DNA of 42,833 nt from an uncultured Acholeplasmatales bacterium. Lineage in GTDB: Bacteria; Bacillota_I; Bacilli_A; Acholeplasmatales; Anaeroplasmataceae. The notes beneath the pieces were generated by a model. It was not told the origin of the DNA, made no database searches, and saw only the letters and a program-made list of their open reading frames with translations. The stretch is taken from positions 1 through 42,833 of the forward strand of contig CALUQZ010000014.1 in assembly GCA_944323055.1 (NCBI GenBank), read 5' to 3'. Below are positions 32,796 to 37,836 of the stretch, one piece after another. Numbering within the stretch: the stretch's first letter is position 1; each line of letters starts with the position of its first letter. Position numbers and translations under genes: made by a program.

Positions 32796-33302
32796 ATGCT
32801 AGATGTAATTAAAAAGCGTCGTTCTATAAGAGATTATAATGATCAAGAAATTAGTAAAAGTGATTTAGTAACTTTATGTGAAGCTGGACTTATGGCTCCT
32901 TCAGCTCGTAATCAAAATAGTAAAGCTTTTATTATTATAGAAGATAAGAATTTGCTTAAACAATTAAGTAAAATTTCTCCGGGAGCTAGAGTTTTAGAAA
33001 AAGCTAATAAAGCTATTGCGGTAATTTGCCCTGATGTTAAAGGTCTATTGACAGAAAATATGGTTTTAGAAGATTTAGGCGCCGCTTGTGAAAATGTATT
33101 GCTAGAGGCTACAAATTTAAATATTGGTTCTTGTTGGATTGGGATTGCTCCTAATGAAGAAAGAATGACCTTAGGTAAAAAAATACTAAATTTAAACGAC
33201 AATGAATTCTTATTTGCTTTAATATCTTTAGGATATCCTATCGATGATAGTGCCTTTTATTTCAAAGATAAAATAAAAAAAGAATTAATTAGGTTTATGT
33301 AG
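32796..33302 (+). CDS. Nitroreductase-family flavoprotein
   Basis: FMN-binding oxidoreductase of 168 residues, at the short end for the family. The FMN phosphate-binding start IKKRRSIRDYNDQEI, APSARNQNSKAFIII near 33-47 and NIGSCWIGIAP near 109-119 are the usual motifs. A strong TAGGAGG ribosome site precedes the ATG 9 bases after the polA stop. No ferredoxin domain. Bacillus has no such gene between polA and mutM. Substrate unknown (quinones, nitro compounds or a flavin-linked redox step). Confidence 0.88.
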   Translation: MLDVIKKRRSIRDYNDQEISKSDLVTLCEAGLMAPSARNQNSKAFIIIEDKNLLKQLSKISPGARVLEKANKAIAVICPDVKGLLTENMVLEDLGAACENVLLEATNLNIGSCWIGIAPNEERMTLGKKILNLNDNEFLFALISLGYPIDDSAFYFKDKIKKELIRFM

Positions 33303-33310
33303 GTGATAAT

Positions 33311-34675
33311 ATGCCTGAACTTGCCGAAGTTGAAACAGTCAGACGGGTTTTAAAATCTGAATTATGCGGTTTAAAAATTACAAAAATAGATTTGTTGTAT
33401 AAAGCAATATTTGAAAATGATGAAAATTTACCTAAATTAATTAATCAAGAATTTGTCGATATCTTGCGTCAAGGAAAATATTTAATATTTTGTTTTAATG
33501 ATGGCTATTTATTAAGTCATTTAAGAATGGAAGGTAAATATTTCTATGTTCAAGCAGATTATCCTTTAAATAAACATATGCATGTAATATTTTATTTAAA
33601 TAATGGCTATAAATTAATTTATCAAGATGTCCGTAAATTTGGTAGGATGCATTATTATCAAAAACTTGATGAACTAAAAGCTGATTTAAAGATAGGAGTA
33701 GATGCTAATATAGCATTAAAAGACATTGATGATTTGTATAAAAAATTAAAGTCAGCTAAGACCTGCATTAAAAATTTATTATTAGATCAATCTTTTATAG
33801 CAGGACTAGGAAATATATATGTCGATGAAGTATTATACGAAGCTAAACTATTACCTAATATGCCAGCTAATTTATTAAGTTATGATGATTTATTTAATAT
33901 TTTAACAGCTAGTCAACAAATTTTAGATAAAGCTATTTTAAATAAAGGTACTACTATTAGGTCATATACATCCTCTTTAGGTGTTACCGGAAATTATCAA
34001 AATTATTTAAAAGTTCATACTAAAGAAAAATGTCCTAAAGGACATCAAATAATAACTTATAAAGTAGGAGGTAGGACAAGTTATGTTTGTCCTATCTGTC
34101 AAACTAATTTTAGCTATGTCATAGGCCTAACAGGTAGTATAGCAAGTGGTAAATCTAATGTAGCAAATGAATTATCTAAAATGGGATTTACAGTTGTTGA
34201 TAGTGACAAATTAGTAAAAGAAGCTTATAATGATAATGATATCATATCTAATATAAAAGCTATATTTAAGACTACTGATAAAAAAGAAATTGGAGATATA
34301 ATTTTTCATGATAAAGAAAAACAAAAAGAATTAGAAAAAATTATTCATCCTTATGTTATAAATAAATTAAAGATAGCAATAGAAAATAATAAATTAGTAG
34401 TATTAGATATTCCGTTATTATTTGAAGCTAATCTTAATTATTTATGTAATAAGATAATTTGTTGTTATTTACCATATGAAGAAGAGTTAAAACGGTTAGT
34501 AGCTCGTGATAATATATCTATAGAGTATGCAAAATCTAAAATCAATAGTCAAATGCCTTTAGAATTAAAGAAAGAAAAAGCCGATTTAATTATCGACACG
34601 AGTGGTACTTTTAAAGAAACTGAAAAAAATATACATAATGTAGTAAAGGAGTTCATATATGGCATATTCAATTGA
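33311..34675 (+). CDS. MutM-CoaE fusion: formamidopyrimidine-DNA glycosylase + dephospho-CoA kinase
   Basis: One 454-residue protein with two normally separate enzymes. Residues 1-267 are MutM/Fpg, the 8-oxoguanine glycosylase/AP lyase: catalytic PELAEVE at 2-8, K near 57 in RQGKYLI, helix-two-turn-helix GLGNIYVDEVL, and a C-terminal zinc finger. That finger reads C241-P-K-G-H245 then C260-P-I-C263: one Cys of the usual four is missing and a His follows, with one residue deleted. From 269 the chain runs straight into CoaE, last enzyme of CoA synthesis: P-loop GLTGSIASGKS, DSDKLVKEAY, HPYV, LDIPLLFEA. No Met or stop separates the two. The genes are adjacent in Bacillus, so a lost stop explains the fusion. 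Confidence 0.93.
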   Translation: MPELAEVETVRRVLKSELCGLKITKIDLLYKAIFENDENLPKLINQEFVDILRQGKYLIFCFNDGYLLSHLRMEGKYFYVQADYPLNKHMHVIFYLNNGYKLIYQDVRKFGRMHYYQKLDELKADLKIGVDANIALKDIDDLYKKLKSAKTCIKNLLLDQSFIAGLGNIYVDEVLYEAKLLPNMPANLLSYDDLFNILTASQQILDKAILNKGTTIRSYTSSLGVTGNYQNYLKVHTKEKCPKGHQIITYKVGGRTSYVCPICQTNFSYVIGLTGSIASGKSNVANELSKMGFTVVDSDKLVKEAYNDNDIISNIKAIFKTTDKKEIGDIIFHDKEKQKELEKIIHPYVINKLKIAIENNKLVVLDIPLLFEANLNYLCNKIICCYLPYEEELKRLVARDNISIEYAKSKINSQMPLELKKEKADLIIDTSGTFKETEKNIHNVVKEFIYGIFN

Positions 34676-35009
34676 AACAAGAGAAAATGGTAATAATGAG
34701 TTAATTCAAACTCATTATTACAAGACAAGCTATGATAATATTAAAAAAGCTTTAGTTGATTATTTAACTAAAAATCAATATTCAGTTAGTGAGTTTAATG
34801 ATGATTATGGTGAAGCAATAGCTACTAAAGGTTATTTATCAGTAACAATTAAAATAATTATGCAAAATCCTAGAGAAACTAGTGTTGATTTCTTTGTTGA
34901 ATATTATGGTTTTTTAGGCCGTAAAAAGAAAGTTAATAGTTTTTTAATGGATATGTATAATTATTTAGGTAAACAATTTGAATTTAAAGGTTTAGGTTTA
35001 CATCAATAA
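34659..35009 (+). CDS. Unknown protein between coaE and dnaB
   Basis: Soluble 116-residue protein I do not recognise. Mixed alpha/beta pattern: after an N-terminal beta-like stretch come a helix (YDNIKKALVDYLTKNQ), strands (YGEAIATKGYLSVTIKIIM and ETSVDFFVEYY) and a C-terminal helix following a GRKKK patch, a layout like small domains with an a-b-b-b-a order. No signal peptide, no cysteines. The ATG follows AAGGAG and overlaps the mutM-coaE end by 17 bases, and its stop overlaps the dnaB start (TAATG), so it is a genuine operon member. Bacillus has nrdR near this position; this protein has none of NrdR's zinc cysteines and is not NrdR. Confidence 0.6.
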   Translation: MAYSIETRENGNNELIQTHYYKTSYDNIKKALVDYLTKNQYSVSEFNDDYGEAIATKGYLSVTIKIIMQNPRETSVDFFVEYYGFLGRKKKVNSFLMDMYNYLGKQFEFKGLGLHQ

Positions 35010-36161: not shown

Positions 36162-37031
36162 ATGGATAAATTAAACTTTAATGTTGATGTAAAATTTAAT
36201 TTGTTAAATGAAATTAATAGGTTAAAAAAGAACCCTCTTTTTGCTGATGTAGATATTACAATAGAGAATTTAAATAGTTGTTTAATTATGGAAATTGAAT
36301 ATTTAAATTGTCAAAAATGTAAAGGTTTAGCTAATTGTCAAAACTTCAACAAAGGATATTTTACAATTTATCAAGATGGTGAGTTTTTATTAACTAAATG
36401 TCAAATTAAAAAAGAAGAAGATAATTTAAATACTAGAAATAGTTTAATTAAAACTCTTTACATGCCTAAAAATATTAGAGAAGCAAGACTTGACAATTTT
36501 AATATTAACAGTGAAGAAAGGAGAGAAATATATAAAGAAATTGTTAATTTTTTAACTAATTATGATACTGATTGTCATAAGGGATTATATTTATATGGGA
36601 CATTTGGTTGTGGTAAAACATATTTATTAGGAGCTCTAGCTTTTGAATTAGCTAAAAGAAATATTAATTCATTATTGATTTATTTTCCAGATTTAATCAT
36701 TGAATTAAAAGGTAGTTTAAAAGATGATAGGTTTAGTGAAATCATTAATGAATTAAAAACAATTGATGTTTTAATGCTAGATGATTTAGGTAGTGAAAAT
36801 ATGACAACATTTGTTAGAGATGAAATCTTAGGTCCTGTTTTAAATTACCGGATGGCCGAAGGTAAACCAGTTTTTATCTCTTCTAATTTAACTCCTGATC
36901 AATTGAGAACTCATTTAACAATTTTTGATAATGCTCTAGATTCAACTAAAGCCGCACGTATTATAGCTCGTTTAGGGCAAATAACTAAATCTATTAACAT
37001 GGGAAGGAGAAGATATAATGGAAATAGTTAG
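36162..37031 (+). CDS. dnaI: Helicase loader DnaI
   Basis: AAA+ ATPase (289 residues) that loads the hexameric DnaC helicase onto DNA. N-terminal helicase-binding domain with zinc-type cysteines C50, C53 and C59; C-terminal ATPase with P-loop GTFGCGKT at 146-153, Walker B VLMLDDLGSE, sensor FISSNLTPDQL and an Arg finger in AARIIARLGQ. Starts one base after the dnaB stop. Overlaps the next gene by 14 bases. Confidence 0.95.
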   Translation: MDKLNFNVDVKFNLLNEINRLKKNPLFADVDITIENLNSCLIMEIEYLNCQKCKGLANCQNFNKGYFTIYQDGEFLLTKCQIKKEEDNLNTRNSLIKTLYMPKNIREARLDNFNINSEERREIYKEIVNFLTNYDTDCHKGLYLYGTFGCGKTYLLGALAFELAKRNINSLLIYFPDLIIELKGSLKDDRFSEIINELKTIDVLMLDDLGSENMTTFVRDEILGPVLNYRMAEGKPVFISSNLTPDQLRTHLTIFDNALDSTKAARIIARLGQITKSINMGRRRYNGNS

Positions 37032-37836
37032 ATATGATAAGAGTCATTTAGCTAAACTTACTTTTTTAAGTGATAAGATGAAAATGTATTATGAAAGGTT
37101 AAAAAACTATATTTTATCATTTGCTAAAGTAAAAAATGGACAAGCTTGGGATGGCGAAAGATTTTATGTAGGTAGGAATAATTTAATTAGAATGCAAGTT
37201 AGGGGTAAAACACTTAATTTATATTTTGCATTAGATCCTAATACTTTAGATAGTAAATATAATGTTATTGATGCTAGTGAAGTAAAAAAATATCAGAATG
37301 TACCATCATTATTAAAAGTTAAAGGACCTCGTTCTTTTAATTATGCAGAAGAATTGATTAATGAAGTTATGAATGTTTATGATATTCCTTATGATGAGGA
37401 ATTTGCAGAATCTTATGGTTTAGAATTAAAATCACGACCTCTTGAGTTATTACTTAAAGAAGGTTTAGTAAAAGCTATTTATGGTAATAAAGTTAGTTCT
37501 AAATCTTTAGATGATGATTTTGATGAAGAAGATGACGAAGAAGAGGAAGAGGAAGAAATAGCTATTATTAATGAGGCTAAATTCATTAGAACAGGATATA
37601 AAAAACAACAGGTTGCTAGAAGCTTAAGATGTGTCATCAATTTAGATTTACTTGAAGATAATTATAATGATAATGAAGTAGTAGATTTAGACACTTTAAA
37701 AGATAAAAAGTTAATTTCAAATGATATTTTATATGTTAAATTATTAGCTACAGGTAATTTAACTAAAAAACTTACTATTAAATTAAATGATATAAGTCTT
37801 AATTCTTTAAATAAGATAAATAAATTAAAAAATTAA
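37018..37836 (+). CDS. Unknown protein with C-terminal ribosomal uL15-like domain
   Basis: A 272-residue cytoplasmic protein in three parts. Residues ~25-130 (RLKNYILSFAKVKNGQAWDG, RMQVRGKTLNLYFALDP, VPSLLKVKGPRSFNYAEELI) match a domain that I recall from uncharacterised Bacillota proteins and cannot name. Residues 165-181 are an acidic run of Asp and Glu. Residues ~200-265 read VINLDLLEDNYNDNEVVDLD, DKKLISNDILYVKLLATGNL and TKKLTIKLNDIS, the order and spacing of the C-terminal half of ribosomal protein L15 (uL15/eL18 fold). The RNA-binding N-terminal arm of L15 is absent, so it is not the ribosomal protein. Overlaps dnaI by 14 bases; Bacillus has ytxC in this slot. Function unknown. Confidence 0.72.
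   Translation: MEIVRYDKSHLAKLTFLSDKMKMYYERLKNYILSFAKVKNGQAWDGERFYVGRNNLIRMQVRGKTLNLYFALDPNTLDSKYNVIDASEVKKYQNVPSLLKVKGPRSFNYAEELINEVMNVYDIPYDEEFAESYGLELKSRPLELLLKEGLVKAIYGNKVSSKSLDDDFDEEDDEEEEEEEIAIINEAKFIRTGYKKQQVARSLRCVINLDLLEDNYNDNEVVDLDTLKDKKLISNDILYVKLLATGNLTKKLTIKLNDISLNSLNKINKLKN

Follow-up and report, generated by a model that had tools for sequence, protein, structure and literature searches.

The window analysed here, 42,833 nt from an uncultured Acholeplasmatales bacterium, carries one uninterrupted 454-aa frame on its + strand (33311-34675; ATG at 33311, stop at 34673-34675), in which a MutM (Fpg) half is followed directly by a CoaE half. The features of the locus are as follows:

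33311..34675, + strand, mutM-coaE fused gene (454 aa plus stop; fused in 8/8 genus members)
33311..34102, + strand, MutM/Fpg half, residues 1-264 (TIGR00577 1-264)
34031..34099, + strand, C3H zinc finger of the MutM half: C241, H245, C260, C263 (ligand pattern)
34103..34123, + strand, junction TNFSYVI, 7 residues between Q264 and G272
34115..34672, + strand, CoaE (dephospho-CoA kinase) half, residues 269-454 (PF01121 269-435, TIGR00152 270-442)

Pfam matches within the frame were Fapy_DNA_glyco (residues 1-113), H2TH (PF06831; 128-218, 76.9 bits), and CoaE (269-435). Both NCBIfam equivalog models scored above cut-off, fpg (TIGR00577) at 246.5 bits against 203.3 and CoaE (TIGR00152) at 127.7 bits against 65.6, bearing out the original prediction that the two proteins share a single frame. 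The MutM half contains the N-terminal P2-E3, K56, the H2TH motif, N168, R255, and the zinc finger, while the CoaE half contains the P-loop GSIASGKS, D299, DIPLLFE, RLVARD, and NSQ. The claim that no linker separates them was nearly correct: seven residues lie between Q264 and G272, the last three forming part of the first CoaE strand, which is predicted to begin at residue 269 as claimed, and no stop codon interrupts the frame between the halves. As was also claimed, CoaE has no start of its own in the window, where no in-frame ATG, GTG, or TTG occurs within 25 codons before the G of the P-loop strand. Between polA and the fused gene, a nitroreductase-family gene (32796-33302, + strand) ends 8 nt upstream of the latter. 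Downstream, a 116-aa ORF lacking a Pfam match (34659-35009, + strand) shares its first 17 nt with the 3' end of the fused gene and is followed by dnaB-like and dnaI-like genes, a setting that appears to resemble the polA-mutM-coaE-dnaB-dnaI region of Bacillus. After the dnaI-like gene lies a 272-aa ORF (37018-37836, + strand) whose C-terminal residues 206-269 match ribosomal L15/L27A (PF00828).

The zinc finger of the MutM half reads CPKGH...CPIC, with the second Cys replaced and a His one residue on, and hence departs from the C4 finger pattern. This CxxxH...CxxC arrangement was found in 7/8 genus members but in 0/164 MutMs from elsewhere; in the remaining member (G035; L007/L138), all four zinc ligands are gone. 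A similar change engineered in Lactococcus lactis Fpg, C248GH, mimics human NEIL2, retains the finger structure, and complements an Escherichia coli fpg mutator (PMC4176347). Because C248GH stays functional in vivo, the C3H change need not harm function, and because His is tolerated there and is natural in hNEIL2, the Fpg family call stands on other features. Two further MutMs, L123 (G352, from another family) and L197, are 57-58% identical to that of the window and have an unusual CxC finger, with no coaE in the stretch examined; they represent a possible transfer.

The source genome is a 1.62-Mb draft (48 contigs, 96% complete). Family searches of this genome, on which the single-copy statements rest, returned the fused ORF as both the sole CoaE above cut-off and the sole H2TH protein, so that the proposed check for a separate coaE or mutM found neither. 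The only MutY-like match (G000:C38:2280-2837) was below cut-off and is probably another HhH glycosylase; the GO repair system of this genome may lack MutY. All 8 genomes of the genus carry an uninterrupted in-frame fusion, the seven others at 61-70% identity to the window, and none of these sister genomes has a stop or frameshift near codon 265, a finding that would have spoken against the original prediction. Among the 55 genomes of the family, 0/47 outside the genus were fused (two of the 47 lacked a match and a third yielded just a fragment), and there mutM and coaE adjoin as separate genes. Across 60 fused genomes from 33 genera, 60/60 encode exactly one CoaE, located inside a long fused frame, and 59/60 encode one H2TH protein. 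One 65%-complete genome (G444) carries two different fused mutM-coaE genes (L058 and L059), one of them placed among family f21, reflecting either contamination or a second copy.

In sisters with separate genes, at most a few dozen bases separate coaE from the mutM stop, and the two genes are in the same frame in 8/22 separate pairs examined in the family and in 67/104 of a wider set. The fused gene of one genus member (L008) and the separate genes of its sister (L009) have junctions of equal length that can be aligned codon for codon:

L008, fused: TGT CAA AAT AAA GGG ATA AAA AAG GTG ATA GGA
L009, separate: TGC CAG GAG TAA AAA ATG AAG CGT GTA ATA GGA

The AAA of L008 stands opposite the TAA stop of L009, and ATA stands opposite the coaE ATG. 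A point mutation of the stop therefore suffices, with the old start lost afterwards. This comparison with sister genomes supports the proposal that neighboring mutM and coaE were joined by stop loss and indicates that the fusion arose by loss of the mutM stop. Most other genus members then lost one codon at the junction.

The survey covered genomes of one class, a search at phylum level also returning same-class genomes only. A search for Fpg and CoaE domains in one chain, as first proposed, revealed a recurrent fusion in several lineages of Bacilli. By direct translation, stop-free MutM-CoaE frames were found elsewhere in the same order (f2 genera g8, g10, and g13; f3) and the same class (f9, f11, f21, f23, f22, f24, f16, and f27), and searches at the levels of order, class, and family ruled out a one-off event. 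In family f11, composed of small-genome bacteria, about 120/137 matched genomes carry the full-length fusion. The fusion is present in a named isolate, Limosilactobacillus kribbianus YH-lim2214 (L156), but absent from Limosilactobacillus balticus (L169). A search of plasmids found only separate mutM and coaE, as pairs or neighbors. In an unrooted tree of MutM plus CoaE proteins (165 loci, 81 fused), the state changed 13 times, and well-supported (starred) branches force no fewer than 8 of these changes, gain and loss not being separable by counts. The window genus formed one clade with a support of 100, nested among separate-gene relatives, and gain is the simple reading for this genus, for Limosilactobacillus, and for locus L068 (G347). 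The junction spans 5-9 aa in 77/81 fused loci, and 65/82 fused genes have no ATG, GTG, or TTG in the 9 codons that precede the P-loop strand.

The MutM family test found the N-terminal Pro-Glu nucleophile/acid, Lys57, N168, and the finger Arg in the window protein, and the CoaE test found the P-loop GSIASGKS, D299, and the lid Arg residues (RLVARD). Across fused loci, the MutM halves retain P2, E3, E6, and K57 in 93/93 and N168 and R258 in 94/94, and the CoaE halves retain the P-loop GK and D33 in 94/94. In this fused set, secondary CoaE residues are eroded, the first lid Arg being kept in 67/94 and the Gln in 51/94 vs. 104/104 separate CoaEs; both residues are intact in the window protein. 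CoaE halves of fused loci in f11, f21, and f23 are divergent and lose such residues (lid Arg, Gln), and kinase behavior may be altered in some of the distant lineages that carry the fusion. For the closest pair (L004/L005), dN/dS was 0.18 for MutM and 0.085 for CoaE; across the genus, it ranged from 0.10 to 0.38 and from 0.09 to 0.51, respectively, every pair being below 0.52. Hence, both halves are under purifying selection, and with the catalytic residues kept, the view that both active sites remain intact was upheld. A degenerate CoaE half was ruled out for the window, where all motif residues are present along with purifying selection.

An AlphaFold2 model built from 37 fused sequences (mean pLDDT 92.3, pTM 0.87) showed an ordered junction, answering the call for a structure prediction of this region. 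Both folds were recognized among solved structures, the best match of the MutM half being MutM 1r2y (Z 34.1) and the CoaE half matching ADP-bound CoaE 4i1v (Z 24.0 over residues 265-454). coaD is also present in the source genome, and therefore the end of the CoA pathway is needed. CoaE is essential in bacteria studied so far and the only copy here is fused; hence, the fused protein is very probably a working CoaE enzyme.

Taken together, we favor a bifunctional MutM-CoaE made from one gene that arose by stop loss, with the two enzymes working independently, and assign this reading a probability of roughly 0.88. In this reading, the tight ancestral mutM-coaE pair of Bacilli lost the mutM stop in the ancestor of the genus, and the coaE start, then useless, disappeared later, leaving a single polypeptide. 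The N-terminal part is predicted to act as an 8-oxoguanine/FapyG glycosylase/AP lyase and the C-terminal part as a dephospho-CoA kinase, the two most likely acting independently within one chain. The nucleophile of MutM is its N-terminal proline, freed by removal of Met. MutM must therefore be the N-terminal partner, a position in which the native mutM-coaE gene order would already have placed it. Since both functions are required and neither enzyme has a spare copy, the fusion is retained. We infer that both activities would be present in the uncleaved protein; CoaE could conceivably be released from the fusion by proteolysis.

It is also conceivable, but unlikely, that the joined state was itself selected, with the N-terminal MutM acting as a scaffold on which CoaE folds or with repair capacity coupled to the CoA/redox state. 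Such selection would be consistent with the number of state changes on the tree and those forced by starred branches, the retention of the fusion in f11, the short and nearly constant linker, and the confident overall arrangement (pTM) of the model. A CoaE that needs a fused domain has precedent, the extra domain of the mycobacterial enzyme being required for folding (PMC2765170), and CoaE levels increase in Bacillus subtilis without the GO repair system (PMC10968225). However, the two genes lie side by side in most Bacilli, frequently in frame, as in the wider set of separate pairs above, and recurrence thus needs only stop loss; in addition, re-splitting is hard, since a stop and a start would both have to arise anew. 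We doubt that a benefit of joining, whether through CoaE folding, a fixed 1:1 supply, or repair-CoA/thiol coupling, explains the at least 8 gains or losses and the retention in f11.

Production of CoaE separately from an internal start, with the fusion existing only as a read-through form, is highly improbable. At the site of the former coaE start, the young-looking fusion L068 still has an ATG accompanied by a Shine-Dalgarno-like sequence, and it might make both the fused and separate forms of CoaE. However, L068 alone combines a start with such a sequence, most fused genes have no nearby start codon, and an internal start was ruled out in the window by the absence of start codons, being possible only in L068. 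Deletion of a stop codon by an assembly or sequencing artefact, for which the 48-contig draft state of the genome could be cited, has a negligible probability: the seven further genomes at 61-70% identity rule out an assembly error, the in-frame fusion in 8/8 genus members excludes chance or sequencing error, and the fusion also occurs in a single-contig genome of 1,496,992 bases (G059) and in the L. kribbianus isolate.

The bifunctional MutM-CoaE resembles several known systems in its parts. Stand-alone MutM/Fpg, represented by L. lactis Fpg (PDB 1pm5 and 4pd2), is alike in fold (Z about 33, 42-43% identity) and has the catalytic residues, H2TH, and finger in common with it; here, unlike in L. 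lactis Fpg, CoaE follows without a stop and the second zinc ligand is His rather than Cys. Stand-alone CoaE (PDB 4i1v) is similarly alike in fold (Z 24.0), P-loop, catalytic Asp, and lid residues, whereas here CoaE has lost its own start codon and is attached to MutM by its N terminus. The neighboring mutM and coaE genes of Bacilli, as annotated for example in records of Enterococcus faecalis and Listeria, share the same order and strand and lie 0-150 nt apart, but encode two proteins, with a stop and a start between them, instead of one. In animal CoA synthase (CoaD-CoaE; PDB 2f6r), CoaE again forms the C-terminal half of a protein with two activities, although its partner there performs the step just before it in CoA synthesis, whereas MutM belongs to an unrelated pathway. 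CoaE is likewise joined to another domain in the mycobacterial CoaE-UPF0157 (GrpB) fusion Rv1631 (PMC2765170), but there the extra, functionally uncharacterized domain sits at the C terminus, in contrast to the active-looking N-terminal repair enzyme found here.

No description of a MutM-CoaE fusion was found in the open-access papers searched (CC0, CC BY, and CC BY-SA), and the original prediction likewise knew of none. Neither the two parts nor the route is unusual, but their combination, its recurrence, and its sole-copy status are, to our knowledge, undescribed. A review reports that Acholeplasma laidlawii is without mutM and that CoaE of phytoplasmas carries the annotation formamidopyrimidine-DNA glycosylase (PMC3322544); such a mix-up of names would fit a gene pair or fusion of this kind. 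Because automatic annotation pipelines give one name per gene, carriers of the fusion may be listed without, and thus seem to lack, one of the two enzymes. The MutM-CoaE fusion is a clear example from nature of one polypeptide shared by a repair enzyme and an essential, otherwise unrelated cofactor enzyme. The mutational steps are still readable in living sisters, and the repeated gains would allow a test of whether such fusions are neutral or useful.
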